Positions 22,301 through 38,333 of a DNA stretch of 64,000 bases are shown here, piece by piece. Numbering within the stretch: the first letter of the stretch is position 1; the number at the start of each line of letters is the position of its first letter. The notes beneath the pieces are model-generated. The model was not told where the DNA came from, made no database searches, and saw only the letters and a program-made list of their open reading frames with translations. The translations under genes were made by a program, and so were the position numbers. Source of the DNA: Burkholderia sp. Bp8992 (GTDB lineage: Bacteria; Pseudomonadota; Gammaproteobacteria; Burkholderiales; Burkholderiaceae); NCBI RefSeq assembly GCF_003853705.1, contig NZ_QTQI01000027.1, positions 1 to 64,000 on the forward strand, in the 5' to 3' direction.

Positions 22301-23186
22301 CCAGTCGACGACGGGCGTCGCGCTCGGCGCCGGCTATCTGTCGGACGCCTGGCGTTTCGACCTCGGCACGTCGCCGCTCGGGTTTCCCGTGCATTACCTC
22401 GTCGGCGGCGTGCGCTATCGTTTCGACGCGGGCCCGGCGAGCTTCAGCGTGAATGCGTCGCGGCGGCCGGAAACGAGCAGCGTGCTGTCGTACGCGGGGA
22501 TGCGCGACCCGTGGACGGGCGCGGTGTGGGGCGGCGTGCGCCGCGACGGCGTGAACCTGCGCGCGTCGGTCGACGTCGGCCGCACGAACCTGTTCGCGGA
22601 ACTCGGCGCGGGCGTGCTGTCCGGCCGCAACGTCGAACGCAACGCGGAAGTCACGCTGCGCACCGGCTTCACGGTGCCCGTGTACGAACGTGCGACGATG
22701 AAGGTCAGCACCGGTCTCGTCGGCAATGCGTGGCACTACGCGCAGAACCTGCGCTACTACACGTACGGGCAGGGCGGTTACTACAGCCCGCAGCGCTACC
22801 TGTCGCTCGGCGTGCCGATCGAATGGGCGGGGCGGCGCGACGCGCTGTCGTGGGACCTGACGTTCACGGGCGGGATTTCGAACAGCTACGAGAAGGATTC
22901 GCTGTACTACCCGACGTTCTCGAGCCAGCGGGCCGCACAGGTCGCGGCCGGGTTCGTGTATGCGGGCAGTTCGACGCGCGGCGTGTCGTTCTCGTACGGC
23001 GTCAACGGCATCGTCGAGTACCGCGTGAACCCGCACCTGAGCGTCGGCGCGCAGTTGCAGATCGACCGGTCGCACGACTATGCGCCGAGCTCGGCGCTCG
23101 TGTACCTGCGCTATGCGTTCCAAGCGCGTGCGCCGCGCAGCTGGCTCGTGACGCCGACGCCCGTGCGGCTTTATTCGGATTACTAG
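19308..23186 (+). CDS. bcsC: Cellulose export protein BcsC: TPR scaffold plus outer-membrane barrel (1292 aa)
   Basis: The outer-membrane exit channel for cellulose. I choose GTG 19308 because a GGGAGG (19296-19301) lies 6 bases upstream and the product begins with a fitting signal peptide (MRRPLKRAVPHVAGFAWLA, cleavage near AAA, residue ~25). Residues ~45-880 are tandem tetratricopeptide repeats (ALRKGLLIAPGDPELLAEQ and many similar units). Residues ~930-1292 are the BCSC_C barrel with Tyr/Gly alternating strands. Longer frames upstream overlap bcsB and bcsZ and are shadows. The TAG stop is the first three bases of the insertion element at 23183, so the element supplies or preserves the stop. 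Confidence 0.94.
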   Translation: MRRPLKRAVPHVAGFAWLASSVCAAAPGPASGTAMPNAPATSASTDAQRQLDTARMWGTKHRDDLARDALRKGLLIAPGDPELLAEQVRVLLRLGDAKGAQASLARLQAQSPNAPATRRVADEYRVATSGRGEMAQIRLLARSGRADEAARRIVALFPNGAPSGALGAEYYQIVSNAPGGREPAIAALRRAVAADPRDTSASIALARLLNQRADTRPEANRIAWSLAKRTDADHTEAMALWRRVLQSAGSDPAYLDALHAYLALVPDDTEFRDRIAGLDQQREAQRRLERDPDYIAQQRGLQALARGDLAAADPLLARAARARADDADAVGGLGLLRLREGRHDEARALFTQAATRATDQRGKWQSLARTAQFWGLLAQGREAANAGRPQDAERAARAALAMQPGSPDAKLQLADALLAQRDWAHAEPLLRELLAARSPDLSAVRGTAMLYENTGRADRIGPLLDALQGRVAGRDDRRALDGLRADLLASQARVLADKGERGPAAQRYEAAVRAAPDAPWTRFALARLYRDMGLPQLGRTVMDDGLALSDTPEMRYATALYRNSLDDVAGAQAALAPVDDAHRSDGMRALARKLDGERALADARGALGRGDRAAFAATLAHAQASAPDDPDMLAAIGAQWIDAGEPDRGLAPLHDWIAAHPREADADVRLRYGDLLGSAGRDDALAAWLDTLRRDPSLTAAQTARLEDQSLRLVLRQTDDAIAQQDYARARQLLDRASPAGRADKRHALELADLERAQGHYGAARDALAPVVARTPDDADTQLALARIDEDSGNRAAALARVQAVLARTPDDDVDTQLSAVRRLNALRRPDEAAQVTDRLQAAYPARADVTVAAGRVAEAQGRYDDAASLYRLSQSQERATGVSPGRDGLTPAQAAFADLQQRRNPEIETGWLPAYKSGDEGVSSYRAQQVPIYMQMPVRYDGHVFAQIDTVHLDPGTLDMSDPNAYSLKTFGTYAALRAQANPSTAALLANPPGSLHQSTTGVALGAGYLSDAWRFDLGTSPLGFPVHYLVGGVRYRFDAGPASFSVNASRRPETSSVLSYAGMRDPWTGAVWGGVRRDGVNLRASVDVGRTNLFAELGAGVLSGRNVERNAEVTLRTGFTVPVYERATMKVSTGLVGNAWHYAQNLRYYTYGQGGYYSPQRYLSLGVPIEWAGRRDALSWDLTFTGGISNSYEKDSLYYPTFSSQRAAQVAAGFVYAGSSTRGVSFSYGVNGIVEYRVNPHLSVGAQLQIDRSHDYAPSSALVYLRYAFQARAPRSWLVTPTPVRLYSDY

Positions 23187-23471
23187 GGTCTGTTTCCACA
23201 TGGAACACACATGCGAATGCCCGAAATCGCTCGTAGGGCAAGAAGTGAGGAGCGCCGTTTGGCCGAGCCAAACAAGCGACGAGCGACGCCGCCATACGGG
23301 CGATTTCGGGCATTCCCGTGGAATGGATTTTTTAATTTGGGGTTGCCACGAGAACGGCCGCTCGCCGCGTTGCGCTCCTGGCGAATACGTCAGTATTCGC
23401 GGCGTCACGCGCCTCGCGAGCGGCCGTTCTCGTGGCAACGCATGTGCGTTCCATGTGGAAACAGACCCTAG
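23183..23471 (+). mobile_element. Structured CTAG-flanked element, copy 1 (three-arm inverted-repeat element, non-coding)
   Basis: A 289-base element with CTAG at both ends (23183-23186, 23468-23471). Terminal arms 23183-23215 and 23439-23471 pair over 33 bases with one mismatch. Inner arm A: 23215-23230 with 23300-23315, a perfect 16-bp stem, capped by a GTTTGGC-CGA-GCCAAAC hairpin (23257-23273). Inner arm B: 23342-23364 with 23417-23439, a perfect 23-bp stem, capped by GCGAATAC-GTCA-GTATTCGC (23381-23400). It encodes no transposase. Copy 2, inverted, is at 37017-37309 with the same architecture. CTAG at both sides is what a YTAR-type target duplication (known for IS5-group elements) would give, so mobilisation in trans is likely. 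It separates bcsC from bcsE. I do not recognise a named family. Confidence 0.85.
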
Positions 23472-23480
23472 GGGAACGTC

Positions 23481-25418
23481 GTGAATACGGAAATCGATGC
23501 CACCCGTTCCGCGCTCGGCGCCGCCGGCCTGCTGGGCCGCCTGCGTGCGCTGCTGCGCATGGGGCCGGCCGGCGGCCGCGTCGGCACGCTGAGCCGGCTC
23601 GCGATCGACGGCCTGCCTGACGCATGGACGCAACTGGAGGCGGGTGGCCTGTACGCGATCTACGCGGCCGGCGGCACGCCGGGGTGCGACGCACTCGTCT
23701 GGGAAAGCGCGCGACAGGCGCGCACGCGCAACGTGACGGTCGTGCTCGCGCGCGATGCGGCGCGCGTCGCGGACCAGATGGAGTCGCTCGGTTTCGCGGA
23801 CGGCGCACAACCGGCCGGCTGGCCGCGCAACCTGAACGTGCTGGCGATGCCGGCGGCGGAGCCGGCCAAAGGTGACGGCACCGACGCGCCGCGCCGCGCG
23901 GCGCCGGGCCCGTTCGCACGGCTGACCGGCGGCCTGCGCGCGATGAAGCGCTACGGTTTTCGCGCGCGTTCGCTGTATTTCGTCGAAGGCGCCCAGCGCT
24001 GGTTCAGCTGGGACGACCCGATCGCGCTCGCGGATGAAGCACGCGCGCTGGCCGACTGGTGCCGGACGCACCGGATCGCGCTCGTGCTGCTGCTCGATCC
24101 CGAAGCGGCGCGGGCGGGCGACGGCGTGCGCACCGACGATGCGCCGCTCGTGCGCGCGGCGGACCGAACGCCGCGCAGCGGCTTCCACGGTATCTGCTCG
24201 GGCGTCGCGCAGTTGCAGCGCACGCACGGCGAACTGCTGTGGATCGTCGATTTCTGGCGCGCGGGCGACACGCTCGCGGCCGGTGAAGTGCGGCCGCTGC
24301 GCTTTGCGCCGGGCGGCCGGCTGTCCGCGAGCGTCGACGGCGGCGCGACCGAGCCGGCGCACCGGATGAAGCTCGCGAGCGACGAGGATCGTGTCGTCGT
24401 CAGCCGCGCGGTGCTCGACGGCACGAATCGCGTGCCGGCCGGCTGGGAAATCGTCGAAGACAACGCGGCCGTCGTCGCGGCGTGCGCGCATGCCCAGGCT
24501 GCCACCGCGGTGCTCGTGTTCCGTTCGCATGCGCAGCTCGAAGCGTTGTGCGCGGACGTGCATGCGTTGCGCCGGCAATGCGGCGGCGCGCTGAAGATCG
24601 CGGTCGTGGAGCGCGGCGAAGTGCTGCGCCAGCAGTTCGAGATGCTCGTGCTGAGCGTCGGCGCGAACCGTGTCGTCGCGCGCGATTTGCCGGTCTCGCG
24701 GATGCAGGCCGCCGTGCATGCGCTGCGCGGCCAGCTCTACGCGCGGCCGGTCGCGCCCGACTATCGCGCGGCGCTCGCGGCCGCGCTCGGCGATTCGGTG
24801 CTCGGCTATCTGCCGGTCGGCGCGTTCTGCCTGCGCATTCGCGCGGTGCTCGATCGCGGCGCCGTGCTCGCGCTGCCGCACACGCTCGCGAAGATCACGC
24901 TGCTGCCGGGCGTGTCGCACGTCGATGCATTGCGGCACTGCCGCCCGCGCCGTGCGGGCGACGTCGTGACGGCCGATCCCGGGCATCTGTTCGTGTTCCT
25001 GTTCGCGTGCGAACCGGTCGACGCCGACGACGCGCTCGCGCGGATCTTCGACGTGCCGGTCGACACGCTGTCCGATCGCGTCGTGTGCCTCGGGCAGGGC
25101 AGCATCGACACCGAGCTCGATGCGCTGAAGGCCGAGAACCGGCGCGCGCCGATCGCCGACTACAGCGACCTGTTCGCGGCGACGCACCCGGCCGGCGGCG
25201 CACGCACGCCGCCCGCGGGCGCCGATCTCGGTGTGACGCCGGCCGAAGCGAGCGAGGCGATCGAGCAGATCGACGCGATCGTCGCGCTCGAGGCGATCGG
25301 TGAATCGCCGGCGCCCGATGCCGTCGACGCACCGGCGCCGCCTCCCGTCATTCCCGCCGCGCGTGCGCGCGGCGCTACCCGCAGCGCGATGCCGCTGCGC
25401 AAGCAGGAGCGCGCATGA
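23481..25418 (+). CDS. bcsE: Cyclic-di-GMP-binding cellulose synthesis factor BcsE (645 aa)
   Basis: BcsE enhances cellulose synthesis by binding cyclic-di-GMP through its GIL domain. An N-terminal degenerate ATPase-like domain (about 40-215) is followed by a receiver-like region and the GIL domain. The RxGD ligand motif is seen as R491-A-G493-D494 in PRRAGDVVTADPG. The C-terminal ~100 residues are Ala/Pro-rich. The GTG start lies 9 bases beyond the insertion element, with AGGGGA as ribosome-binding site; the first bases of that site come from the element-side CTAG. Without the element, bcsE would begin 10 bases after the bcsC stop. The next gene bcsF overlaps by ATGA. Confidence 0.9.
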   Translation: MNTEIDATRSALGAAGLLGRLRALLRMGPAGGRVGTLSRLAIDGLPDAWTQLEAGGLYAIYAAGGTPGCDALVWESARQARTRNVTVVLARDAARVADQMESLGFADGAQPAGWPRNLNVLAMPAAEPAKGDGTDAPRRAAPGPFARLTGGLRAMKRYGFRARSLYFVEGAQRWFSWDDPIALADEARALADWCRTHRIALVLLLDPEAARAGDGVRTDDAPLVRAADRTPRSGFHGICSGVAQLQRTHGELLWIVDFWRAGDTLAAGEVRPLRFAPGGRLSASVDGGATEPAHRMKLASDEDRVVVSRAVLDGTNRVPAGWEIVEDNAAVVAACAHAQAATAVLVFRSHAQLEALCADVHALRRQCGGALKIAVVERGEVLRQQFEMLVLSVGANRVVARDLPVSRMQAAVHALRGQLYARPVAPDYRAALAAALGDSVLGYLPVGAFCLRIRAVLDRGAVLALPHTLAKITLLPGVSHVDALRHCRPRRAGDVVTADPGHLFVFLFACEPVDADDALARIFDVPVDTLSDRVVCLGQGSIDTELDALKAENRRAPIADYSDLFAATHPAGGARTPPAGADLGVTPAEASEAIEQIDAIVALEAIGESPAPDAVDAPAPPPVIPAARARGATRSAMPLRKQERA

Positions 25419-25621
25419 TTGCCGTACTCGTCATCGGTTTCATCGCCGGCATCGTGATCGCGGTGCCGGTGTGGATCGTCGCGCAGCACCTCGGCATCGG
25501 CCGCGGCTTTCATGCGCCGCGCGGGATCGACCGGCACGACGCGGTGCCGTGCGAACTCGTGCCGGTTGCGCTGCGCGGCCGGTTGCTGCCCGGCGCCGTC
25601 GACGACAAGGCGGCGCGATGA
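25415..25621 (+). CDS. bcsF: Single-span membrane protein BcsF (68 aa)
   Basis: One N-terminal membrane helix (residues ~4-24, AVLVIGFIAGIVIAVPVWIV) and a short polar tail. Size and topology match E. coli BcsF (about 63 residues), which sits in the membrane with BcsG and helps recruit BcsE. ATGA overlaps join it to bcsE upstream and bcsQ downstream, so the three are translated as a block. Confidence 0.85.
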   Translation: MIAVLVIGFIAGIVIAVPVWIVAQHLGIGRGFHAPRGIDRHDAVPCELVPVALRGRLLPGAVDDKAAR

Positions 25622-26397
25622 AGACGATCGCCATTACGTCGACGACCGGCGGCGCGGGCCGCACGACGCTCGCCGCCGCGCTCGCGGTGCTGCTTGCGCG
25701 CCGCGGCCGGCCGGTCGTCGCCATCGAATTCGATCCGCAGAACCTGATGGGCGCGGCGCTCGGCCTCGACACGCTGGCCGAACAGGGTCTCGCGCAAAGC
25801 GTGCTCGGCGGCGCGGAACCGTGGCACACGCATACGTGGCGCAACGCCGACGACGTGCTGTTCGTGCCGTACGGGCAAGTCGATGCCGCCGATGCAGCCG
25901 CATGCGATGCACGGCTCGCGGCCGATCCCGCGTGGCTGTCGCGCGCGCTGGACGAGATCGCGCTGCCGGCCGACGGCGTCGTGCTGGTCGACACCGCGCG
26001 CTATCCGTCGCCGCAGGCCGAGCAGGCGATTCGCCGCGCGGACCTGACGCTCGTCGTCGTGCCGCCGGAGCCGGCCGCCTGCGCGACGACGGCCGCGCGG
26101 CTCGGTGCGCTGCGGGCCGGCGCCGGTGAACTGCAGATCGTCGTGAACCGGCTGAATCCGGCACGCGACATGCAGCGCGACGCGCTCGCGATGCTGCGCG
26201 CGGTCGCGGGGCCGGCATCGATGCTCGAACAACGGATCCACGTCGACGCGGCCGTGCCCGAAGCGCTCGCGCGCGGCAGCTGGATCTTCGACGACGCGCC
26301 GTATTCGCAGGTGTCGCACGACCTGAACGGCATCGCGAACTGGGTCCATGCATGGTTGACCGCCGTCGCCGCGGGCCGCAGCGGAGCGGCGCGATGA
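25618..26397 (+). CDS. bcsQ: MinD/ParA-like cellulose factor BcsQ (259 aa)
   Basis: A SIMIBI-class P-loop protein that positions the cellulose machine and forms a complex with BcsE and BcsR. The deviant Walker A is TSTTGGAGRTTL (residues 8-19), where the usual KGGVGKTT lysines are replaced; the signature Lys is Thr and the P-loop Lys is Arg. BcsQ of E. coli also lacks the canonical Lys, so this is a family trait. Walker B-like GVVLVDTARY follows at about 120-130. The ATG at 25618 overlaps the bcsF stop; a longer frame starting inside bcsE is a shadow. The end overlaps bcsA by ATGA. Confidence 0.9.
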   Translation: MKTIAITSTTGGAGRTTLAAALAVLLARRGRPVVAIEFDPQNLMGAALGLDTLAEQGLAQSVLGGAEPWHTHTWRNADDVLFVPYGQVDAADAAACDARLAADPAWLSRALDEIALPADGVVLVDTARYPSPQAEQAIRRADLTLVVVPPEPAACATTAARLGALRAGAGELQIVVNRLNPARDMQRDALAMLRAVAGPASMLEQRIHVDAAVPEALARGSWIFDDAPYSQVSHDLNGIANWVHAWLTAVAAGRSGAAR

Positions 26398-28931
26398 AGC
26401 CCGCGTTCGCGCCGCGACTGCGCACGCTCGGCCGCCGTGTGGCCGACTGGTGCGCACGCGGCATCGGGCTGCCCGCCGAGCGCACGCTGGTCGACTGGTT
26501 CGTGCGGCTGTTCTTCCATGCACCGCCGCCCGGCCGGCCCGATCACGTGCGCCGCTGGGTGCGCGTCGCGTTCCTGCGGCTCGCGCACGACTGGGGCGTG
26601 CTGCAGCCGCTGAGCCCGCGCGAATGGCTGTGGCGCGCGATCGTGCGCGCGCCGCGCGCGGCCGACGGCCGGCCTGCGCGCGATCCGCTCGCGTGGTTCG
26701 ACAAGACCGTCGTGCCGGCTTACGTGGCCGGGCGCGCGGTCGGCCGGCGCATCAACGCGCTGCTCGACCGGCTGCCGTGGACGCGCTGGGGCGGCTGGCT
26801 CGATGCGCGCGCGAACGGCGTCGGCCGCCGCCGCTGGCTCGCGCCGCTGCTGCTCGTAGCCGGGGCGGTGCTGTGGGCCGCGGCCGGGATGTCGCCGCTG
26901 ATGCCCGGCGCGCAGTTCGCGTTCTTCGCGATCGTCGCGGTGCTGGCGCTCGCGCTGCGGCGCTTGCCGGGCCACCTGCCGACGCTCGCGCTCGCGTCGC
27001 TGGCGCTGCTCGCGACGGTGCGCTACGTGTGGTGGCGCACGACGCAGACGCTCGACTTCCGCAGCCCGGTCGAGGCTGTCGCCGGCTACCTGCTGTACGG
27101 CGCCGAAGCCTATACGTGGATGATCCTGCTGCTCGGCTTCGTGCAGACCGCGTGGCCGCTCGACCGGCCGATCGTGCCGCTGCCCGACGACCCCGACACC
27201 TGGCCGACCGTCGACATCTACATCCCGACCTACAACGAGCCGCTGTCGGTCGTGAAGCCGACGGTATTCGCCGCGCAGAGCATCGACTGGCCGACGGAGA
27301 AGCTGCGCGTGTACCTGCTCGACGACGGCAAGCGCCCCGAATTCGAGGCGTTCGCGCGCGAGGCCGGCATCGACTACGTGACGCGCGACGACAATCGTCA
27401 CGCGAAGGCCGGCAACATCAACCGCGCGCTGCCGAAGACGCACGGCGAATACATCGCGATCTTCGACTGCGATCACGTGCCGACGCGCTCGTTCCTGCAG
27501 ACGACGATGGGCGTGTTCCTGCGCGACCCGAAGTGCGCGCTCGTGCAGACGCCGCACCATTTCTTCTCGCCCGATCCGTTCGAACGCAACCTCGGCACGT
27601 TCCGCGAGATCCCGAACGAGGGCAACCTGTTCTACGGGCTCGTGCAGTCGGGCAACGACCTGTGGAACGCGACGTTCTTCTGCGGCTCGTGCGCGGTGCT
27701 CAAGCGCACGGCGCTGGAGGAGGTCGGCGGCGTCGCGGTCGAGACCGTGACCGAGGATGCGCACACGGCGCTCAAGCTGCACCGGCGCGGCTATACGTCC
27801 GCGTACCTGCCGACCGTGCAGGCGGCCGGCCTCGCGACCGAAAGCCTCGCGGGCCACGTGAAGCAGCGCACGCGCTGGGCGCGCGGGATGGCGCAGATCT
27901 TCCGCATCGATAACCCGTTCCTCGGGCGCGGGCTCGGCTTCATCCAGCGGATCTGCTACGGCAACGCGATGCTGCACTTCTTCTACGGGATTCCGCGCCT
28001 GGTGTTCCTGACGATCCCGCTCGCGTACCTGTTCTTCCACCTGTACTTCATCAACGCGTCGTCGCTCGCGCTCGCGAGCTACGTGATCCCGTACCTCGTG
28101 CTCGCGAACGTCGCGAACTCGCGGATGCAGGGACGCTATCGCCATTCGTTCTGGGCCGAGGTGTACGAGTCGGTGCTCGCGTGGTACATCGCACTGCCGA
28201 CCACCGTCGCTTTCTTCAGCCCGAAGCACGGCAAGTTCAACGTGACCGACAAGGGCGGCAAGATCGACGAAGGCTACGTCGACTGGTCGACGTCGAAGCC
28301 GTATCTCGTGCTGTTCGGGATGAACGTGCTCGCGATCCTCGCCGGCCTGTGGCGGCTCGCGGCGGACCAGGGCGACGAGGCGTCGACGATCCTGATCACG
28401 CTCGGCTGGACCGTGTACAACCTCGCGATGCTCGGCGCGGCGCTGGCCGTCGCGCGCGAGACCAAGCAGGTGCGCGTCACGCACCGGATCGCGATGCGCG
28501 TGCCGGCCATGTTGCTGCTGGCCGACGGGTCGACGGCCGCGTGCTTCACGAGCGACTACTCGACCGGCGGCCTCGGCCTCGAGGCCGTGCCGGGGCTGCC
28601 GCTCGCCGTCGGCGACACGCTGACGGTGTGCGTGACGCGCGGCGACCGCGCGTTCCCGTTCCCGGTGCGCGTGACCCGCGTGACGCCGACGCATGTCGGC
28701 GTGAGCTTCGAGGAACTGACGCTCGAACAGGAGCGCCAGCTCGTGCAGTGCACGTTCGGTCGTGCCGATGCCTGGCTCGACTGGCACGAGGGCGAGCGTC
28801 TCGACACGCCGCTCGGCGGGCTGAAGGAAGTGCTGCGGATCGGGCTGGACGGCTACGTGCGGATGTGGAAGGGTGCGGCGCGCGGCGTGCAGGCGATGCT
28901 GGCGCCGAAACTCGATCGGGCGCGCGACTGA
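26394..28931 (+). CDS. bcsA: Cellulose synthase catalytic subunit BcsA (845 aa)
   Basis: Processive GT2 glycosyltransferase that polymerises UDP-glucose into beta-1,4-glucan and extrudes it across the inner membrane. Substrate motifs are in order: DDG (310-312), DCD (358-360), TED (453-455) and QRTRW (491-495). Membrane segments lie before (about 145-260) and after (about 520-700) the catalytic domain. A C-terminal PilZ domain has both cyclic-di-GMP motifs, R698-IAM-R702 and D721-YSTGG. The N-terminal ~140 residues are the extra segment also found in the longer enterobacterial BcsA. Activation by cyclic-di-GMP is therefore expected, with the divergent GGDEF protein as a candidate source. The start overlaps bcsQ by ATGA. 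Confidence 0.97.
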   Translation: MKPAFAPRLRTLGRRVADWCARGIGLPAERTLVDWFVRLFFHAPPPGRPDHVRRWVRVAFLRLAHDWGVLQPLSPREWLWRAIVRAPRAADGRPARDPLAWFDKTVVPAYVAGRAVGRRINALLDRLPWTRWGGWLDARANGVGRRRWLAPLLLVAGAVLWAAAGMSPLMPGAQFAFFAIVAVLALALRRLPGHLPTLALASLALLATVRYVWWRTTQTLDFRSPVEAVAGYLLYGAEAYTWMILLLGFVQTAWPLDRPIVPLPDDPDTWPTVDIYIPTYNEPLSVVKPTVFAAQSIDWPTEKLRVYLLDDGKRPEFEAFAREAGIDYVTRDDNRHAKAGNINRALPKTHGEYIAIFDCDHVPTRSFLQTTMGVFLRDPKCALVQTPHHFFSPDPFERNLGTFREIPNEGNLFYGLVQSGNDLWNATFFCGSCAVLKRTALEEVGGVAVETVTEDAHTALKLHRRGYTSAYLPTVQAAGLATESLAGHVKQRTRWARGMAQIFRIDNPFLGRGLGFIQRICYGNAMLHFFYGIPRLVFLTIPLAYLFFHLYFINASSLALASYVIPYLVLANVANSRMQGRYRHSFWAEVYESVLAWYIALPTTVAFFSPKHGKFNVTDKGGKIDEGYVDWSTSKPYLVLFGMNVLAILAGLWRLAADQGDEASTILITLGWTVYNLAMLGAALAVARETKQVRVTHRIAMRVPAMLLLADGSTAACFTSDYSTGGLGLEAVPGLPLAVGDTLTVCVTRGDRAFPFPVRVTRVTPTHVGVSFEELTLEQERQLVQCTFGRADAWLDWHEGERLDTPLGGLKEVLRIGLDGYVRMWKGAARGVQAMLAPKLDRARD

Positions 28932-28958
28932 CGCGGCGCTCATCATGGAGTGGTTTAG

Positions 28959-30515
28959 ATGACGTTCTGGAATCTGTATTTCATCCTGAAGTTCGCGCTG
29001 TTCGCGACCGGGCACCTGCAGCCGTTCTGGCTCGCGAACCTCGCGTTCGCGGTGGCGCTCGTGGCGAGCGCGCCGATCCGGCAGCGCGCCTGGCGCATCG
29101 TCCGGCAGGTCGTGGCGATCCTGGTCGCGGTGCCGCTGCTCGCGCGCGAGATGCATGCGCCGCCGCTCGCGCGTCTCGCCGAGGCCGCGCGCGAAGTGAG
29201 CACGTTCCGCCTCGACTACTGGATGGAACTGCTGCCGCGCCTGCTGCCGCCGGTGCTGGTGCTGACGGTCGTCGGCGCGCTGATCGTCTATTTCATCGTC
29301 AACCGCTGGCTGCGCGTCGCGACGTTCGTGCTGGCCGTGCTGATCGTGATGCCGCTGTGGCAGGCCGGCAGCGGGCTGATGGCGCGCGTCGTCGCGCCGG
29401 CCCAGCAGCAGGCGAACGCAACGGGCGCCGCGCGCGCCGACCAGCCCGAGGACCACAACGCGGCGCTCGCGACGTTCCGCGCCCAGGAGTCGCAGCGGCA
29501 GGTCGCGTTCGGCCATCTCGGCAGCGATCCGGCCGCGCAGTTCGACGTGATCGTGCTGCACATCTGCTCGCTGTCGTGGGACGACCTCGACGCGGCGAAG
29601 GTGCGCAACCACCCGATGCTGAGCCACTTCGACTACCTGTTCTCGAACTTCAGCACGGCGGCGAGCTACAGCGGCCCGGCGGCGATCCGCGTGCTGCGCG
29701 CGAGCTGCGGCCAGGAAGCGCACGCCGACCTGTACAAGCCCGCGCCGCAGCAGTGCCACCTGTTCTCGCAACTGGCGAGCGCCGGCTACTCGGTGCAGTC
29801 GCTGCTGAACCACGACGGCCATTTCGACAACTTCCTGCAGGTGGTCCACGACAACATCGGCGTGGCCGATGCGCCGATGATCTCGAACGCGGCCGCGCCC
29901 GTCGCGATGCACGCGTTCGACGGCTCGGCGATCAAGGACGACTATTCGACGCTCGCGAACTGGTACGCGCAGCGCGCGTCGGTGCCGGGCCCCGTCGCGC
30001 TGTACTACAACACGATCAGCCTGCATGACGGCAACCGCATCGTCGGCAGCGCGCTGACGAGCATCGACTCGTATCCGCAGCGCGCGACGAAGCTGATGAA
30101 CGACTTCGACCGGCTCGCGGACCTGATCGCGCAGTCGGGCCGCCGCGCGGTGATCGTGTTCGTGCCCGAGCACGGTGCCGCGCTGCGCGGCGACAAGAAC
30201 CAGGTCGCGGGCCTGCGCGAGATCCCGACGCCGCGCATCGTGCACGGGCCGGTCGGCGTGCGGCTCGTCGGCTTCACCGGCAACCACGGCGCGACGACCG
30301 TGATCGACCAGCCGACCAGCTTCCTCGCACTGTCGCAGTTGCTGTCGAACCTGGTGTCGAACAGCCCGTTCAAGCCGGGCACGACGCTCGCGCAGTACGC
30401 GGCGGACCTGCCGCGCACGCGGATGGTCGGCGAGAACGAGGGCACGGTGACGATGCAGACGGCCGCGGGCTACGCGGTGAAAACTCCGGACGGCGTATGG
30501 ATCGACGAACAGTAA
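28959..30515 (+). CDS. bcsG: Cellulose phosphoethanolamine transferase BcsG (518 aa)
   Basis: Inner-membrane enzyme that moves phosphoethanolamine from phosphatidylethanolamine to cellulose. Four to five membrane helices lie in the first ~150 residues, then a periplasmic alkaline-phosphatase-fold domain. HICSLSWDD begins the domain, and SYSGPAAIR carries the nucleophile serine (Ser236 or Ser238). HDGHFDNF and VPEHGAALRGDKNQ hold metal ligands. Length matches the family (about 560 in E. coli). Its presence with BcsE and BcsF predicts that this organism makes pEtN-modified cellulose. It starts 27 bases after bcsA and ends overlapping the bcsR-like gene. Confidence 0.92.
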   Translation: MTFWNLYFILKFALFATGHLQPFWLANLAFAVALVASAPIRQRAWRIVRQVVAILVAVPLLAREMHAPPLARLAEAAREVSTFRLDYWMELLPRLLPPVLVLTVVGALIVYFIVNRWLRVATFVLAVLIVMPLWQAGSGLMARVVAPAQQQANATGAARADQPEDHNAALATFRAQESQRQVAFGHLGSDPAAQFDVIVLHICSLSWDDLDAAKVRNHPMLSHFDYLFSNFSTAASYSGPAAIRVLRASCGQEAHADLYKPAPQQCHLFSQLASAGYSVQSLLNHDGHFDNFLQVVHDNIGVADAPMISNAAAPVAMHAFDGSAIKDDYSTLANWYAQRASVPGPVALYYNTISLHDGNRIVGSALTSIDSYPQRATKLMNDFDRLADLIAQSGRRAVIVFVPEHGAALRGDKNQVAGLREIPTPRIVHGPVGVRLVGFTGNHGATTVIDQPTSFLALSQLLSNLVSNSPFKPGTTLAQYAADLPRTRMVGENEGTVTMQTAAGYAVKTPDGVWIDEQ

Positions 30516-30694
30516 TCCTTCCCGGCGACGGCGACGACGATCGCCTGTCGCAACCGAACGACGTGATCGGTCTCGCGCGGCATCTGCCCGCGCTCGATCC
30601 CGAGCGTTATGTCGACGAGCAGGCGCGCCGCGCGTTCGTCGAGTCGCTCGACCGCTGGCCGACGCTCGCGAAGCTGATGGGATTGAAGCCGTAA
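30497..30694 (+). CDS. bcsR: BcsR-like small cellulose factor (65 aa)
   Basis: The C-terminal half (DVIGLARHLPALDPERYVD, then ARRAFVESLDRWPTLAKL) aligns with E. coli BcsR, which ends in a similar NDIVALK...LP..DY and LKRWPLLAEF pattern. BcsR binds and stabilises BcsQ in the synthase assembly. The start ATG lies inside the end of bcsG, overlapping by 19 bases in another frame. In E. coli bcsR precedes bcsQ and opens the operon; here it closes the operon. Confidence 0.75.
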   Translation: MDRRTVILPGDGDDDRLSQPNDVIGLARHLPALDPERYVDEQARRAFVESLDRWPTLAKLMGLKP

Positions 30695-30700
30695 ACGCAC

Positions 30701-30726
30701 GACGGCCGGCAGGCGTGCCGGCCGTC
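30701..30726 (+). terminator. Hairpin after the cellulose operon
   Basis: A perfect 10-bp stem GACGGCCGGC/GCCGGCCGTC with a 6-base loop, 6 bases after the bcsR-like stop and just before the convergent pirin gene (ends 30750). Little T tract follows, so it may act with both transcripts. Confidence 0.55.
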
Positions 30727-30749
30727 CTTGGTCGGGCGCGCGCGTCCGC

Positions 30750-31634
30750 CTATTGCGCCTTGCGCGCCGGCTGGCGCGTCCACTCGTCTTCTTCGCCCGG
30801 CACCTTGCCGAACGTCTGATCGGCCCACGCGGCGCGCGCCGCGTCGATCTTCGCGCGTTCGCTCGAGACGAAATTCCATTCGATGAACCGCTCGCCCGGC
30901 AGGTGTGCACCGCCGAGCAGCATCACGCGCGCGCCGTTCGCGCTGGCGAGCGCCGCGGTCGCGCCCGGTTCGAGCACGGCCATCGTCGCCGGGGCGAGCG
31001 GCGTGCCGTCGACGGTGAGATCGCCGTCGACGAGATACACGCCGCGCTCGTCGTGCTCCGCATCGAGCGCGAGTTGCCCGCCCGACGCGAATTCCGCATA
31101 CGCATAGAGCGTCGGCGAGAACACGGCGACCGGCGACGTGAGTCCGAACGCGGTGCCCGCGATCACGCGCACGTTCACGCCGTCGCGCACGAACGACGGC
31201 AGCGTGTCGGCCGCGTGGTGAACGAATGCGGGCGCGGTGTCCTCATGCTCGACCGGCAGCGCGACCCAGGTTTGGATCCCGTGCACCGGCTGCTCGCGCG
31301 GCCGGTCCTCGTCGGGCGAGCGTTCCGAATGCACGATGCCGCGGCCGGCCGTCATCCAGTTCACGTCGCCCGGCACGATCTTCTGCCGGAAGCCGAGGCT
31401 GTCGTGATGCATCAGCGAGCCGTCGAACAGGTAGGTGACGGTCGCGAGCCCGATGTGCGGATGCGGCAGCACGTCGATGCCGCGGCCGGCCGGCAGCACG
31501 GCCGGGCCCATTTCGTCGAAGAAGATGAACGGGCCGACGAGGCGCGCGGCACGCGCGGGAAGCACGCGGCGCACGACGAGGTTGCCGATGTCGCTTTCGC
31601 GCGGTGTGAGCAGGGTCTTGATCGAGGCGGACAT
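30750..31634 (-). CDS. Pirin family protein (294 aa)
   Basis: A bicupin with the metal-binding set of pirins in the N-terminal cupin: His58 and His60 in LPHPHIGLAT, His102 and Glu104 in GRGIVHSER. Bacterial pirins of this kind can act as quercetin 2,3-dioxygenases or bind central-metabolism enzymes; the substrate here cannot be told. The start at MSASIKTLL is chosen because the longer upstream frame overlaps the osmC gene. It is the second gene of a minus-strand pair, 20 bases after osmC. Confidence 0.9.
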   Translation of the reverse strand: MSASIKTLLTPRESDIGNLVVRRVLPARAARLVGPFIFFDEMGPAVLPAGRGIDVLPHPHIGLATVTYLFDGSLMHHDSLGFRQKIVPGDVNWMTAGRGIVHSERSPDEDRPREQPVHGIQTWVALPVEHEDTAPAFVHHAADTLPSFVRDGVNVRVIAGTAFGLTSPVAVFSPTLYAYAEFASGGQLALDAEHDERGVYLVDGDLTVDGTPLAPATMAVLEPGATAALASANGARVMLLGGAHLPGERFIEWNFVSSERAKIDAARAAWADQTFGKVPGEEDEWTRQPARKAQ

Positions 31635-31654
31635 GGTGGGGATCCCGGGAAGCG

Positions 31655-32047
31655 TCAGGCGATCGCCGTGTCGATCGTGATCGGGTGCGTGAGGATCTTG
31701 TGTACCGGGCACGCGTTCGCGATCTGCAGCAGGCGCTCGCGCTGCTCGCCGGTCAGGTCGCCGTCCAGCGTGATGCGGCGCACGATCGTGCTGCCCGCGC
31801 TGCCCGATTCGTGCGCGAGCTTCACGTGCACTTCGGCGAGCGGCCAGCCTTTTCGTTGCGCATACATCTTCAGCGTGATCGCGGTGCACGCGCCGAGGCT
31901 CGACAGCAGCAGCGCGACGGGCGTCGGTGCCGCATCGCCGCCGCCGAGCGGCGCGGGTTCGTCGGCGCGCCACTGGTGGACGCCATCGCTGAAGTGGACG
32001 AGGTAATCGACCGAGCCGATGCTCGCTTCGACGGACAGTTCGCTCAT
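31655..32047 (-). CDS. OsmC/Ohr family peroxiredoxin-like protein (130 aa)
   Basis: An OsmC-fold protein that reduces organic hydroperoxides with a reactive cysteine pair, Cys54 in SSLGACTA and Cys113 in NACPVHK. The usual family length is about 130-140 residues. The ATG is clear and no longer start is needed. It precedes the pirin gene in a probable two-gene stress operon. Confidence 0.9.
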
Positions 32048-32099
32048 TGCAATTCCAGGTGGGGAAGGAGGGTGGGCCGGCGGCGTGGCCGGCCGGGCG

Positions 32100-33680
32100 T
32101 TACGGTTCGAGCAGCCGCTGCAGGCGCAGTTCCTCGAAATCGAGTTCCGATTCTATGCGGTGCAGCGTCGCGTCGTCGACCTTGCCGTCGCGGTGCAGGT
32201 CGAGCAGCGCGCCGCGCGACACGCCGACGAGTTCGAGCTCGACGCGCAGCATGCGCGCGCGCACGCCGGCCGGTTCGGCGCCTTGCCGGTGCGCGCGTTC
32301 GTTGAACATGACGCGGTTGCGGTATTCGGTGAGCAGGCGGTCGAGCGACGGGCGTTCGAGATCCGACCCGCGCCGCTCGCGTGCGTCGAGTTCGGCGAGC
32401 GCCGCGCCGAACGTGTGCGCCCGCACCGCATGTTCGGACATCGTGTGGCGCGCGGCCGGGCGCAGCTTCAGCACGCGGATCAGCGGCGCGAGCGTGCCGC
32501 CTTGCACGACGAGCGTCGCGATGATCAGCAGGAACGTGCTGAACAGGATCAGGTCGCGGCCGGGGAAGTTGCCCGGCAGCGCGATCGCGGCCGCGAGGCT
32601 CACGACGCCGCGCATGCCCGACCAGCCGAGCACGACGGCTTCGCGCCACGACCACGGCGCGTGACCCGCGCGCGGCGCGCGCAGGCGGCCCGGCAGCCAC
32701 ATCGCGACGAATACCCACAGGACGCGCGCACCGATCGCGGCGGCAGTGGCCGGCAGCGCGACGCGCAGGCCGGCCATCAGCACCGCGCCTTCGTGGTTCA
32801 CGCGCGCGAGGATCGCATGCAGCGCGAGGCCGATCAGGATGAACACGAGCGCGTCGAGCACGAACACGATCGCTTCCCACGTGGCCTTCGCCTTGATCCG
32901 CATGTCGGCGTCGAACACGCGATGCTGGCGTACGCCGAGCACGAGGCCGCAGGTGACGACCGACAGCACGCCCGAGCCGTCGACGGCTTCCGCGATGCCG
33001 TAGCTGCCCCAGGCCATCGCGAAGGTCACGACGATGCCGAGCATCGGGTCGCGCAGGCGCGGCAGCACCCAGCTCATCGCATGGCCGCAGGCGAGGCCGA
33101 CCGCGATGCCGATCAGCGTGAGCGAGAAGAACAGGCCGGTGGCGCTCGCGGCCGTGATCGAGACGGCGAGCGCGGCCGAGACGGCCATCTGGTACAGCAG
33201 CAGGCCCGATGCGTCGTTGACGAGACTTTCGCCTTCGAGCACCGCGACGAGTCGTGCGGGCAGCGGATGGCGCTGCAGGATGGCTTTCGCGGCGACCGCG
33301 TCGGGCGGCGAGACGATCGCGCCGAGCGTGAAGCACGCGGCCCAGGGCAGCCCCGGGTTCGCGGCATGCACGGCGAGCGCGACCGCGACGGTCGTGAACG
33401 CCACCGCGCCGAGCGCGAGCGACGCGATCGATGCCAGTTGCTCGCGGAATTCCTTCCATGCGGTGTAGAACCCGCTCGACATCAGCAGCGGCGGCAGCAC
33501 GGCCGCGAGCAGCAGCGCCGGATCCATGTCGGGCACGCGCTTGCCGGCGACCGCAATTACGCAGCCGCCGAGCAGCAGCACGACGGCCGGCGGAATCGAG
33601 ATCCGCTCGGCGAGCCACGTGAGCGCGCCCGCGCCGCAGATCAGCAACAGCAGGTAATGGAACAGTTCGACGTTGGTCAT
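32100..33680 (-). CDS. Na+/H+ antiporter, CPA1/NhaP type (526 aa)
   Basis: About twelve membrane helices, with CPA1 landmarks: [11 protein letters not shown] in helix 3, [11 protein letters not shown] (the ion-binding Asp region) and [15 protein letters not shown]. The last ~120 residues form a charged cytosolic tail with helical segments ([12 protein letters not shown]...). It should exchange Na+ (or K+) for protons. It is 52 bases upstream of the osmC gene on the same strand and may be read together with osmC and pirin or separately. Confidence 0.92.
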
Positions 33681-33763
33681 GCGCGGCCGCGAGCGAGGGG
33701 GGCATCACGACGGCTACCGGAACGGCACCGTCAAAGTGTTGAAAGCGTAGCGGGTTTGCGTAA

Positions 33764-33796
33764 AGAAAAAAAGGACGGCCCCGCGGGGCCGTCCTT
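33764..33796 (-). terminator. Intrinsic terminator of the acid phosphatase gene
   Basis: A 12-bp perfect stem AAGGACGGCCCC/GGGGCCGTCCTT (33771-33796). Read on the minus strand it is followed by a T-rich run (33764-33771). It lies 54 bases past the end of the minus-strand gene 33850-35436 and isolates it from the antiporter gene. Confidence 0.85.
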
Positions 33797-33849
33797 CGTT
33801 GGTCCGGCCCGGCCGTGCGACCGGCCGGTTTGCCGTAACGGTGACGCGA

Positions 33850-35436
33850 TTACAGGTTCGGCGACAGCGCGAGCGCGTTCGTCAGGTCGCCCATCGGCTG
33901 CGACCCGTTCGCCTTCAGCGCGTCGTCGCGCTGCTGCAGGCCCGCGAGGCGCGGCAGCGAGAAGCGGCGCGTGACGAAGCGCAGGATCGAGCCCGTGTCG
34001 TACAGCGTGTGGTCGACGAAGCCCTTCTTCGCGAACGGCGACACGATCAGCGCCGGAATGCGCGTACCCGGACCCCAGCGGTCGGCGGTCGGCGGCGCGG
34101 CATGATCCCAGAAGCCGCCGTTTTCGTCGTACGTGACGACCACGACCATGTTCTTCCACTGCGGGCTGGCCTGCAGGTGTGCGATCACGTCGGCGATGTG
34201 CTGGTCGCCGGACGTGACGTCCGTGTAGCCCGGGTGCTCGTTCAGGTTGCCTTGCGGCTTGTAGAACGTGACCTGCGGCAGCGTGCCCGCATCGATCGCC
34301 TTGATGAACTCGGCGCCGTTCGCGCCGCCGTCGAGCAGGTGCTGCGCGCGGCTCGCGGTGCCCGGCGCCTGGTTCGCGAAGTAGTTGAACGGCTGGTGGT
34401 GCGGCTGGAAGTTCGGCGTCGACAGGTCGGCGCCGTAGATCACGTTCGACGTGCCGTTCTGGCTCGCCTGCAGCGCCTGGCCCCATGCGCCGCCATACCA
34501 CGCCCACGACACGCCCGCGTTGGTCATCAGGTCGCCGATGTTGGTCGCCGTCTGCGGCGGCATCGTCGACGGATTGGCCGGGTCGGCGAGCAGCGGGTCG
34601 CCGCCTGCGGCCGCCTTGTTGCCGCTCGGCTGGTACGCCGGCTGCATCGTGTTGATGCCGTAGAAGTCAGGCGTGAGCGCGCCGTCGTTGACGAACTTCG
34701 GCGGGCCGCTCAGCGCGGAGGCCGGCGAGTTCGTCGCGACCTTCAGCGACTTGCCGTCGGCATTCAGCACGGCGATCTTGCCGGCCGCCGGACTCTTGTC
34801 GGCGTTCGCGTAGTACGGCGCGCACGCGCAGATCAGGTACTGGTGGTTCAGGAACGAACCGCCGAACGCGCCCATGAAGAAGTTGTCCGCGAGCACGTAT
34901 TGCTGCGCGATCTTCCACAGCGGCAGCTTCGACGGATCGGCCGTGTAGTGGCCCATCGTCAGGCCGCCCGCGTCGGTCCATGCGGCGTACATGTCGTTCT
35001 TGCCGCCGTTGATCTGCATCTGGTCCTGGTAGAAGCGGTGCACGATGTCGCGCGTCGCGATGCTCATCGACTGGTTGAAGCCCTTCGGATCGTCGATCGC
35101 GAACGGCGCGTTCGGCAGGTTCGCCGTCATCGCCTCGGTCACCGCCGGCGTGATGCCGGTCGCGGTCAGGCCGCCCCAGATCTTCGGCAGCGTCGCCAGC
35201 GTCGAGCCGTCGCGATCCTTCTGCACCGAGTTCGCGGCCGTCGCGTTCTGCAGGCCGTTCGCGCCCGGGAAATTGCCGTACAGGTTGTCGAAGCTGCGGT
35301 TTTCCGCGTAGATCACGACGACGTTCTTGACGGCCGACAGGCCTTGCTGCGTGACATCGTCACCGCCGCAGGCGGTCAGGCTGAGCGCCGCCGCGAGGGC
35401 GATCGGCGTGTAGCGAATCCAGGCGTACTTCTTCAT
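33850..35436 (-). CDS. AcpA/phospholipase C-family phosphoesterase lipoprotein (528 aa)
   Basis: Member of the bacterial phosphoesterase family (phospholipase C/acid phosphatase AcpA). The lipobox LSLTAC at residues ~18-23 predicts an acylated, exported enzyme. Family motifs: VVVIYAENRSFDNLYG near the N-terminus (the nucleophile-containing ENRSFD), HQYLICACAPYY in the middle, and TYDENGGFWDHAAPP with RIPALIVSPF in the C-terminal half. It should hydrolyse phosphomonoesters or phospholipid head groups outside the cytoplasm. I start at MKKYAWIRYT; the upstream extension is not plausible. It is monocistronic with its own terminator and divergent from the peroxidase gene. Confidence 0.88.
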   Translation of the reverse strand: MKKYAWIRYTPIALAAALSLTACGGDDVTQQGLSAVKNVVVIYAENRSFDNLYGNFPGANGLQNATAANSVQKDRDGSTLATLPKIWGGLTATGITPAVTEAMTANLPNAPFAIDDPKGFNQSMSIATRDIVHRFYQDQMQINGGKNDMYAAWTDAGGLTMGHYTADPSKLPLWKIAQQYVLADNFFMGAFGGSFLNHQYLICACAPYYANADKSPAAGKIAVLNADGKSLKVATNSPASALSGPPKFVNDGALTPDFYGINTMQPAYQPSGNKAAAGGDPLLADPANPSTMPPQTATNIGDLMTNAGVSWAWYGGAWGQALQASQNGTSNVIYGADLSTPNFQPHHQPFNYFANQAPGTASRAQHLLDGGANGAEFIKAIDAGTLPQVTFYKPQGNLNEHPGYTDVTSGDQHIADVIAHLQASPQWKNMVVVVTYDENGGFWDHAAPPTADRWGPGTRIPALIVSPFAKKGFVDHTLYDTGSILRFVTRRFSLPRLAGLQQRDDALKANGSQPMGDLTNALALSPNL

Positions 35437-35667
35437 GCGATGTTCTCTCTCATTCGTCGTTGGTCGCGTGTGGGAACCAGGTGGCGGGAGGGCCGGCGCA
35501 CGAACCTCGCGGTACCGCCCGGCTGCGCGCATTATCTGGAACCGATTTGACAGCCGGGTGTAGGCACGCTTTCAATTGACTGTCGGTCGAACGTCATTCA
35601 ACGGTCACGGAACTGACATAAGCTCCGGCCGATTGCCCACCTGCCCACCGCTACTAGAACAACGACG

Positions 35668-37020
35668 ATGCACACCCTTCTGAAATCCTTCGCGTCCGCG
35701 CGCTCGCTGGTTTCCGCCGCGGCGACGCTGGCGCTGGTCGGCGCGCTCGCGGCGCTCGCCGGTTGCGATGCACAGCCCGGCACGAATGCGTCGGCCGTGT
35801 CCGTCGTACCGGCGGCCCAGGCTGCTGCTCCGGCCGCCCCGGCGGTCGCGCCGGCCGGCCAGCCGCAGACGCGCGCGCAGGTATTCGAGGGCGTGAAGCA
35901 GATGACGGCGCTCGGCAAGCAGCTGTTCTTCGATCCGTCGCTGTCCGGGTCCGGCAAGCTCGCTTGCGCGTCGTGCCATAGCGCCGAGCATGCGTTCGGG
36001 CCGCCGAATGCGCTGTCGGTGCAGCTCGGCGGCGACGACATGCACCGTACCGGCTTTCGCGCGGTGCCGTCGCTGAAGTACCTGCGCGGCATCCCGCCGT
36101 TCAGCGAGCACTTCCACGATTCGCCGGACGAAGGTGACGAAAGCATCGACGCGGGTCCGACCGGCGGGCTGACCTGGGATGGCCGCGTCGATACGCGCGA
36201 TGCGCAGGCGCGCATTCCGCTCATGTCGCCGTTCGAGATGAGCAGCTCGCCCGCGTGGGTCGCGAAGGCGGTTCGCGCCGCACCGTATGCCGACGCGTTC
36301 CGCAAGGCGTTCGGCGACCAGGTGCTCGGCGACGACCAGGCGACGTTCAATGCAGTGTTGCGCGCGCTCGACGCATTCCAGCAGCAGCCGGCACTGTTCG
36401 ATCCGTATACGAGCAAATACGACGCGTACCTGGCCGGCCACGCGCAGCTCACGCCCGCGGAGTTGCACGGGCTGCAACTGTTCAACGACGAGAAGAAGGG
36501 CAACTGCGCGAGTTGCCACATCAGCCAGCGCACGCTCGAAGGCGGCCCGCCGCAGTTCAGCGATTTCGGGCTGATCGCGGTCGCGGTGCCGCGCAACCGC
36601 GCGCTGCCCGTCAACCGCGACCCGCGCTTTTACGATCTCGGCGCGTGCGGCCCCGAGCGCACCGACCTGAAGGGCCGCGACGAATTCTGCGGGCTGTTCC
36701 GCACGCCGTCGCTGCGCAACGTCGCGCTGCGCAAGACCTTCTTCCACAACGGCGTGTATCACTCGCTCGAGGACGTGATGCGCTTCTACGTCGAGCGCGA
36801 CATCCATCCGGAGAAGTTCTACCCGGTCGTGCACGGCAAGGTGCAGATCTACGACGATTTGCCGAAGCGCTACTGGCCGAACATCAACCGCGAGCCGCCG
36901 TTCGACCGCAAGCGCGGCGACCAGCCGGCGCTGAACGCGGTCGAGATCAAGGACGTGATCGCGTTCCTCGGCACGCTGACTGACGGATATCAGCAAACGG
37001 CGGCGCCGGCCAAGCCCTAG
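35668..37020 (+). CDS. Di-haem cytochrome c peroxidase family lipoprotein (450 aa)
   Basis: Two haem c sites, CASCH at residues 100-104 and 280-284, in the CcpA/MauG-type fold. The family blocks GKQLFFDPSLSGSGKLACASCH, LTWDGRVD and LRTPSLRNVALR-like FRTPSLRNVALRKTFFHNG are present. An N-terminal lipobox LAGC (30-33) and Ala/Pro-rich linker suggest membrane anchoring in the periplasm. It should reduce H2O2 with electrons from cytochrome c or copper proteins, or act as a MauG-like oxidase. The TAG stop is the first triplet of the structured element 37017-37309, as for bcsC. Confidence 0.9.
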   Translation: MHTLLKSFASARSLVSAAATLALVGALAALAGCDAQPGTNASAVSVVPAAQAAAPAAPAVAPAGQPQTRAQVFEGVKQMTALGKQLFFDPSLSGSGKLACASCHSAEHAFGPPNALSVQLGGDDMHRTGFRAVPSLKYLRGIPPFSEHFHDSPDEGDESIDAGPTGGLTWDGRVDTRDAQARIPLMSPFEMSSSPAWVAKAVRAAPYADAFRKAFGDQVLGDDQATFNAVLRALDAFQQQPALFDPYTSKYDAYLAGHAQLTPAELHGLQLFNDEKKGNCASCHISQRTLEGGPPQFSDFGLIAVAVPRNRALPVNRDPRFYDLGACGPERTDLKGRDEFCGLFRTPSLRNVALRKTFFHNGVYHSLEDVMRFYVERDIHPEKFYPVVHGKVQIYDDLPKRYWPNINREPPFDRKRGDQPALNAVEIKDVIAFLGTLTDGYQQTAAPAKP

Positions 37021-37309
37021 GGCCTGTTCCCGCTAATAACGGGCTTGCGCTGGCCCCCAGAAGGGCCGAGCGCGAGGATTGCGACGAAGCGAATACTCGA
37101 CGTATTCGCGAGGAGCATGACGCGGCGATCGGCCCTTCTGGGAGCCAGCCCCACGAATGCATTTTTCCAAACAGGGGAACGTGCCTTTCCGCCCACATTG
37201 CGGCGTCGTGCGTCGCTTGTTTGGCACGGCCAAACGGCGCTCCTTACTCCTTGCACTGCAGGCGGGAAGGCACGTTCGCAAGCCCGTTATTAGCGGGAAC
37301 AGGCCCTAG
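37017..37309 (-). mobile_element. Structured CTAG-flanked element, copy 2 (inverted relative to copy 1)
   Basis: A 293-base element with CTAG at 37017-37020 and 37306-37309. The terminal arms 37017-37049 and 37277-37309 are perfect over 33 bases. Arm B: 37050-37072 with 37126-37148 (21 of 23 paired), capped by GCGAATAC-N5-GTATTCGC (37089-37109). Arm A: 37177-37193 with 37261-37277 (16 of 17), capped by GTTTGGC-ACG-GCCAAAC (37219-37235). Caps and the nearby core (GGAGCGCCGTTTGGC on the minus strand) match copy 1, while the outer stems have largely different sequences of equal length. It is non-coding; short frames through it are spurious. Confidence 0.85.
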
Positions 37310-37418
37310 AGGCATTCATTACAGCACGCATGCTATGCTCGCTCGCTGACGGGCGTGGTGCGTACCGGTCCGCCGGCATGCACCACGCCGTTCGATCGAA
37401 CATCCAAGGAGAAAAAAC

Positions 37419-37805
37419 ATGTCGATGCGTGCATCCCTTTCCGTCGTCACGCGCGTGCTGGCCGGCGCCGCGTGCGCAGCCGCGATGCTGCCCGCCCATG
37501 CGCAGAACAACCTGAACTTCCTGAACGACACGCCGATCAGCTATTTCAGCAAGACCGATCGCGCGTCGCTGTCCAAGGCGGTCGTGCAAGTGCGCGACGA
37601 AGGCAAGGACGGCGAAACCACGACGTGGCAGAGCAGCGGTCGCGGCACGCAGATCGACGCGAAGCTCACGCCGACCACGTCCGAGAGCGACGGCAAGACC
37701 TGCCGCGAGATCGCCACCGAAATCACCGCGAAGGGCCAGACGATGACGCTCAAGCCCGTCTACTGCAAGACGGCCGCGGGCAAGTGGCAGCTGCAGAAGC
37801 GCTGA
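37419..37805 (+). CDS. Small secreted protein, surface-antigen-like (128 aa)
   Basis: Signal peptide at residues ~1-28 (ends PAHA). The mature domain of ~100 residues has two cysteines (in KTCREIA and PVYCKTA), as in periplasmic proteins of the RT0821/17-kDa surface antigen C-terminal type (WQSSGRGTQIDAKL...CREI...YCKTAAGKWQL). The start ATG is supported by AAGGAG 7 bases upstream (37406-37411); a second ATG two codons later is also possible. Function unknown. Confidence 0.8.
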   Translation: MSMRASLSVVTRVLAGAACAAAMLPAHAQNNLNFLNDTPISYFSKTDRASLSKAVVQVRDEGKDGETTTWQSSGRGTQIDAKLTPTTSESDGKTCREIATEITAKGQTMTLKPVYCKTAAGKWQLQKR

Positions 37806-37816
37806 GCACGCGTGTG

Positions 37817-38287: not shown

Positions 38288-38333
38288 GCGGGCGCGGCTT
38301 GCGCCGTCGCGTTCCGCTTCGATACACGCAATA

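Follow-up and report, generated by a model that had tools for sequence, protein, structure and literature searches.

Paired stem changes in a foldback IS5-type element of Burkholderia, probably renewed by template switching between arms

The window analysed here, a stretch of 64,000 nucleotides from Burkholderia sp. Bp8992 (contig NZ_QTQI01000027.1, positions 1 to 64,000), carries two inverted copies of an element of about 285 bp, in which a terminal stem encloses two arms, A and B, each made of a stem and a cap. Comparison with copies from other genomes suggests that these loci are a non-autonomous foldback miniature inverted-repeat transposable element (MITE), whose arms are probably kept alike by template switching from one arm to the other. 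Paired changes, usually taken as proof of a functional RNA, can thus most likely arise in plain DNA, each side being copied from the other. The family is multi-copy, with empty sites in other genomes and full elements with similar ends; its stems evolve in pairs, and inverted copies occur at the same site.

Covariation of the three stems

An earlier note on the window, made from its two copies alone, had described compensatory change in the stems, and this is real. In a set of 55 copies (the two of the window, 51 from genome contigs and two, L399 and L400, from plasmid records of other genera), paired changes are in excess in all three stems, and the copies do not reduce to a few stem sequences fixed by descent. 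The contig copies were picked from 70 printed of 124 candidates, and L003 and L106 share one site in opposite orientation. Of the 67 stem pairs, 41 change on both sides (23, 10 and 8 in the three helices), and 98.4% of the cells pair, a figure that falls to 30-41% when the partner is slid by 1-3 columns. Cells with a double change number 671, whereas the shuffles average 238 (none of 500 reached 671) and slid alignments give no more than 47; the covariation score is 0.435, compared with 0.134 in shuffles and at most 0.059 in slid alignments.

A larger set, freed of identical copies and of eight core hits whose terminal stem could not be aligned, comprises 194 distinct copies in 143 flank clusters (opposite-orientation copies at one site being counted as separate clusters), 179 of them full length. 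Over 62 pairs in the full-length copies, Watson-Crick pairing holds in 10986 of 11098 cells; in 105 copies there is no mismatch at all. As expected of a repeat homogenised by template switching, the arms are kept alike while their sequence changes, with fixed exceptions.

Inversions and deletions

Template switching is also expected to invert the stretch between two arms, and such inversions were found both for single caps and for whole elements. Among 26 sites with at least two copies matching on both flanks, seven hold both orientations, and at four of these there is a pair with at most 10 differences. The 14 opposite pairs fall into classes of at most 5 (4 pairs), 6-10 (1), 11-20 (4) and more letter differences (5), and the 75 same-orientation pairs number 5, 23, 30 and 17 in the same classes. 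L108 and L344 lie in opposite orientation at the same site with two differences, the nearest copy elsewhere having 10; the corresponding values are 1 vs 7 for L115/L280, 5 vs 9 for L062/L330 and 5 vs 8 for L042/L115. In the printed sequences of the inverted copies the flank and the terminal repeat are kept and the interior is reversed. At the site shared by L042, L280 and L115, a paired change and a flip are found together with a lost arm B. Cap A is reversed relative to its arms in L105, 1 of 295 hits, and cap B in L154, 1 of 255 (duplicates included in both counts), L154 lying where window copy 1 is inserted. According to PMC8604942, template switching can both homogenise arms and invert the spacer between them.

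Several copies measure 181-205 nt, and arm B is missing where the sequence was printed (L005, L014, L021, L115). By eye, 13 of 20 loci pre-picked for one end seeming to stand alone, including L239, L243 and L246-L256, retain only about 37 bp, one terminal arm with the foot of arm B, and stop at or near GGCC. Scattered through the genomes, these solo ends have the form of footprints of collapsed elements, as slippage between the GGGCC of the left end and the foot of arm B would leave.

Changes confined to a single site were likewise found. At shared insertions, window copy 1 (at 20, in script numbering), L102 (48), L113 (22 and 43) and L280 (17) have paired changes set in an 11-letter context that no other site shows. 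For the other same-site paired changes the context is found elsewhere, and ectopic conversion could account for them.

Proposed mechanism

An IS5-family transposase would spread the element through its termini (GGGNCTGTT...), with insertion at CTAG/TA, this mobilisation in trans being presumed. On single-stranded DNA at replication forks the three nested palindromes would form hairpins, and the polymerase may then switch template between the arms, a copying step that we infer. A mutated arm would be mended from its partner, and any single mutation would thereby vanish or become fixed in both arms; because each arm is mended in this way, the stems would drift to new sequences yet stay paired. 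At times the switch would invert the stretch between the arms, and slippage would delete arm B or most of the element.

A possible selection on the DNA fold

A number of observations weigh against copying between arms, and most of them speak for a possible though rather unlikely alternative, selection for a folded DNA (a cruciform or a single-stranded three-way hairpin) recognised by a transposase, a nucleoid protein or a repair protein and maintained by ordinary second-site compensation. The layout is the same on both strands, with GA-rich mismatches in the first arm (by eye), and the caps are kept in sequence, whereas the stems keep only their pairing. Between the two main stem types the stems differ at 38% of positions, cap A at 9% and cap B at 22%; since the caps differ by only 9-22%, and since conserved rows of GA/GA mismatches persist in cap A, the caps are apparently held by selection on their sequence, which likely acts in addition to copying. 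Fixed mismatches have been left unmended: the B-stem pair at columns 184/242 lacks pairing in 31 of 55 copies, and such mismatches, like the GA/GA rows of cap A, would be expected to vanish under blind copying between arms. The stems and caps also change at about half to two thirds of the rate of the flanks at shared sites: across 42 same-site pairs the differences amount to 6.9% in the flanks, 3.4% in the stems, 3.2% in cap A, 4.9% in cap B and 16% in the spacer. Besides, copies were retained only with an alignable terminal inverted repeat, which favours pairing in the terminal stem, though not in arms A and B, and five of the 14 opposite pairs, those whose copies differ at more than 20 letters, may be independent insertions.

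The comparison of sites points the same way. When copies with the same unpaired divergence are compared, double changes are fewer within a site than between different sites (69 pairs, smaller set): 0.87 vs 2.35 double changes per pair at 7-9 unpaired differences, and 1.57 vs 3.60 at 10-13. In the smaller set, double and single changes stand at 47:35 between sites vs 7:16 within them. Selection tied to movement therefore fits these counts better than copying in place. A larger nearest-neighbour test goes in the same direction without significance, and shows no clear difference between and within sites (51:46 between vs 10:16 within, p=0.27); its counts ignore recombination among copies. Compensation linked to movement is a possible reading of these data.

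Selection for a DNA fold alone, however, does not predict that caps and whole elements are inverted at the same site, nor paired changes unique to a resident copy in which almost nothing else has changed (L042/L280). Judged from sequence comparison, the inversions would favour mutational correction, and the equal-divergence comparison of same-site and different-site pairs would favour DNA-fold selection. A reading that joins the two, doubtful at present, takes the three-way hairpin as the substrate of movement and the caps as letters read by a protein, with copying at the fork renewing the shape, the stems free to vary and the element flipping at its site between two orientations.

Unlikely readings: structured RNA and common descent

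The same stems could in principle be selected as a structured RNA, such as a regulator, a terminator or a small RNA, pairing being maintained at the RNA level. The very stable fold, the classic pattern of covariation and the position of both window copies exactly at the end of an open reading frame (ORF) would agree with this, which is nevertheless very unlikely. Selection on RNA tolerates G.U more than A.C, and no such preference was found on the transcribed strand: in the 179 copies the mismatch events are G.T 38, A.C 38 and other 33. This count was made after omission of three A-stem columns with frequent fixed T.G (53-55), of the three outermost pairs, and of four columns with more than 10 mismatching copies (T.C 66; T.G 65; G.A 61 plus G.G 2; A.C 31 plus A.G 1), two of which belong to the foot of arm B, whose length is not the same in both types but differs by one base. 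The symmetry of G.T and A.C would be less telling if both strands were equally transcribed. Between nearest copies, double changes comprise 27 transitions and 34 transversions and single changes 46 and 16 (Fisher p=0.0009), so that double changes are richer in transversions, not poorer; transversion mismatches may, though, simply disrupt any fold more. Because G.T and A.C events are equal and double changes are transversion-rich, the covariation is most likely not of the type left by selection on RNA. In addition, both orientations occur at the same site, Rfam gave no match at the gathering score across 22000-38500, and the element junctions show no clear in-frame excess at gene ends (counts below). 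In PMC8604942 bacterial data are cited in which transversions were favoured by template switching, and the yeast genes of that study itself showed more transitions.

Of the three origins that the earlier note had offered, a copying process that renews both arms together is therefore the best supported, by the 38:38 ratio, the transversions and the inverted caps and elements; a DNA fold is possible, and RNA structure is disfavoured.

That no special process is needed, a few stem sequences of ancient fixation having simply been passed on by descent and by recombination between dispersed copies, is scarcely tenable: two main stem types do cover most of the full-length copies (90 and 81 of 179) and some paired variants recur at several sites, like ectopic gene conversion, but paired differences occur within each type and at single shared sites, some in a context found at no other site, and there are further stem sets in Caballeronia and Paraburkholderia as well as alternative paired apical hairpins.

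The two copies of the window

The earlier note had placed two inverted copies with a common order of terminal stem, arm A and arm B at 23183..23471 (copy 1, plus strand) and 37017..37309 (copy 2, minus strand), and both stem anatomy and folding bear it out: the folding z-scores are -19.3 and -15.6, with 0 of 200 shuffles equally good. Its coordinates hold, except that the outermost TA at either end is part of the target duplication and lies outside the element. By comparison with empty sites, the element proper of copy 1 spans about 23186-23468, with TA duplications at 23184-23185 and 23469-23470 inside CTAG, and that of copy 2 spans about 37020-37306, with TA duplications at 37018-37019 and 37307-37308.

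In copy 1 the terminal stem pairs 23183..23215 (5' arm) with 23439..23471 (3' arm) over 33 nt with one mismatch (97% complementary). Arm A (23216..23314) has a perfect core stem of 15 bp, 23216-23230 with 23300-23314, and its cap A carries an apical hairpin at 23257-23273. A T-rich spacer (23315..23341), the fastest-changing part of the element (16% at shared sites vs 3.4% in the stems), leads to arm B (23342..23439), with a perfect stem of 24 bp, 23342-23365 with 23416-23439, and a cap B whose apical hairpin lies at 23381-23400. In copy 2, on the minus strand, the terminal stem pairs 37277..37309 (5' arm) with 37017..37049 (3' arm) at 33/33 positions (100% complementary); arm A (37177..37277) pairs 37253-37277 with 37177-37201 and arm B (37049..37149) pairs 37125-37149 with 37049-37073, being 84% and 92% complementary, respectively, over 25 nt. 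Aligned with their flanks, the two copies have a mean column identity of 81%; the caps are much alike, and the stems differ yet stay complementary.

The apical hairpins, described in the earlier note as conserved, are less constant in arm A. When elements are delimited by terminal repeats, 215 distinct ones result, of which 199 carry GTTTGGC, seven the perfectly paired GCAATAGC and one, from Paraburkholderia, CGTGGC/GCCACG, eight having been left unclassified by the script; the share of GTTTGGC is biased upward, since most loci came by way of the GTTTGGC core or of BLAST with the window copies. In arm A the apical hairpin was thus swapped for another sequence with its pairing kept. Strict conservation of the caps is weakened by these alternative paired hairpins and by the further stem sets in other genera. 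By eye, GAGGAGC- and GCGACGA-like motifs that pair with repeated GA/GA mismatches are common to cap A and, on the opposite strand, cap B, so that both strands would read alike from the 5' end.

Insertion sites and kinship with IS5

Both window loci have empty counterparts in other genomes, for example GGATTACTAGGGGAACG for copy 1 and AAGCCCTAGAAGGC for copy 2, as left by clean insertion. Among loci L149-L208, site 1 is filled in 7 and empty in 6, and site 2 has one filled and nine empty loci. Of these 15 empty targets, 11 read CTAG and four a near variant (L177, L181, L183, L192), and a duplication of 2 bp is indistinguishable from one of 4 bp at CTAG sites because CTAG is palindromic. Of 141 sites, 82 are flanked by TA on both sides. 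The second most frequent class, CA/TG (10 of 141), is complementary and not a direct repeat, and no class is an identical direct repeat other than TA; complementary flanks of this kind suggest that arm copying reached into the target duplication.

Genes for DDE transposases were sought by PF01609 in seven genomes, and of 30 loci (L209-L238) only L215 has MITE-like ends, CTAGGGCGTGTTCACACTAT. Its two overlapping ORFs match PF13340 and PF01609, as well as the two halves of the NCBIfam model transpos_IS5_3, just below the cut-off (104.8 and 102.3 vs 110 bits). With the second ORF as query, matches were found in 14 of 121 genomes, nine of them of the same genus. Of 27 transposase loci fetched, 16 score at least 12/20 for inverted ends, and 15 of these have GGG/TGG...TGT ends (L425 and L426, both among them, being one element), with TA on both sides in 14. 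The full elements, which we take to belong to the IS427 group, measure 797-827 bp; most have the end GGGCGTGTTCACACTA or a near variant, and L412, L427 and L428 have the end GGGTCTGTTTACATTC. These ends resemble the two terminal types of the MITE, GGGC[C/G]TGTTCACGCTA and GGGTCTGTTTACAT, over about 14-16 bases and not over the whole 33-bp stem. The scan of the family library covered the ORFs of L215, and the elements of the GGGTCTGTTTACATTC type were found by their 33-35% identity to L215. No homogenisation is seen between the two terminal repeats of a full element, which lie about 800 bp from each other and have 13-18 of 20 positions alike in the 15 loci; this is a weak control, as ends may differ for other reasons.

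By its termini, its TA/CTAG target and the related full elements in the same genus, the element behaves as an IS5-type MITE. It is a point against mobilisation by these elements that they do not track the MITE: one genome (G007) has nine transposase matches and three others (G048, G051, G058) have one each, all with no core hit. The earlier note, which knew no named family for such behaviour, was half right; the element has the traits of a known class, and no published description of this particular family was found by title or abstract, most subscription papers lying outside the search.

Both window copies sit exactly at the end of an ORF, where the first G of the element completes an upstream TAG stop codon (23184-23186 and 37018-37020). 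The same completion is seen in Paraburkholderia sprentiae (L400, 1501-1504), and the Paraburkholderia hit H3 lies at the last codon of a gene. At the empty sites of other genomes the TAG is mostly present already. Stop-codon targeting as a rule was rejected: 134 junction ends carry TAG, with a small in-frame excess (48 vs 41 and 43 for frames open over at least 100 codons).

Relation to known systems and significance

Similarly to IS5-family MITEs (NCBIfam transpos_IS5_3 group), the element is short, multi-copy and without a transposase gene, makes TA duplications and has ends similar to those of the 797-827 bp elements. It differs from them in its three nested near-perfect stems, which fill much of its length, in the covariation of its arms and in the inverted copies at the same site. 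With the REP/REPIN and GTAG/CGTC repeats, as PMC3733652 describes them, it shares dispersed hairpins whose stems use alternative complementary bases. Those repeats are there units of 20-40 bp with terminal GTAG/CGTC tags, the GTAG type often with G.T pairs. The present element, in contrast, is about 285 bp long with three arms, inserts at CTAG/TA and has IS5-type ends and no excess of G.T; its anatomy is not that of a tagged 20-40 bp unit, and membership in this class was rejected. The review PMC10969869 notes that bacterial MITEs give stable folds.

The closest parallel in process is quasipalindrome correction by template switching, which according to PMC8604942 also yields homogenised arms and inverted spacers, and whose cited bacterial data are similarly rich in transversions; that paper describes single short repeats in yeast genes, whereas here a whole mobile family with three nested stems is concerned. 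For RNA genes, PMC8794818 proposes that paired changes come from one DNA event, as is proposed here, but the product here bears no sign of RNA. These two sources thus already describe the process, PMC8604942 in isolated repeats and PMC8794818 in RNA genes. What seems to be new is that an entire mobile family shows homogenisation, flips and slippage in its three nested stems.

Paired stem changes are widely held to be decisive for functional RNA, and here 41 of 67 pairs co-vary without an RNA mismatch signature; such elements call for caution in the use of automatic RNA finders. With many copies per genome, each offering stems, loops, flanks and shared sites, the debated share of template switching in compensatory evolution becomes measurable in bacteria.

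Distribution of the family

The core pattern of cap A was found in 118 stretches of public genome contigs, and among the 80 listed all are from Burkholderia or Paraburkholderia. Allowing up to three mismatches, the core occurs in 50 of 200 relatives, comprising 47 of 65 genomes of the same genus and three of two other genera of the family, with 0 of 79 in genomes of other families. A BLAST search of plasmid records with copy 1 returned seven records (five Burkholderia, one Paraburkholderia and one Caballeronia). No match was found in phage records with copy 2, and a phage origin was rejected. At about 285 bp the element is too short for ORFs of 135 and 126 codons, and it occurs in many copies with no transposase of its own.

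A palindromic unit of 27 bp, GTCCCCCAAGGGGACTTCCTNCGGGGC, is inserted in arm A of several copies (L011, L382, L384, L392 and others), sometimes twice and in inverted orientation. Its 19-base part (up to two mismatches) is absent from the window. With at most one mismatch, the unit, which looks like an independent small repeat, is present in 26 of 71 genomes from three genera.

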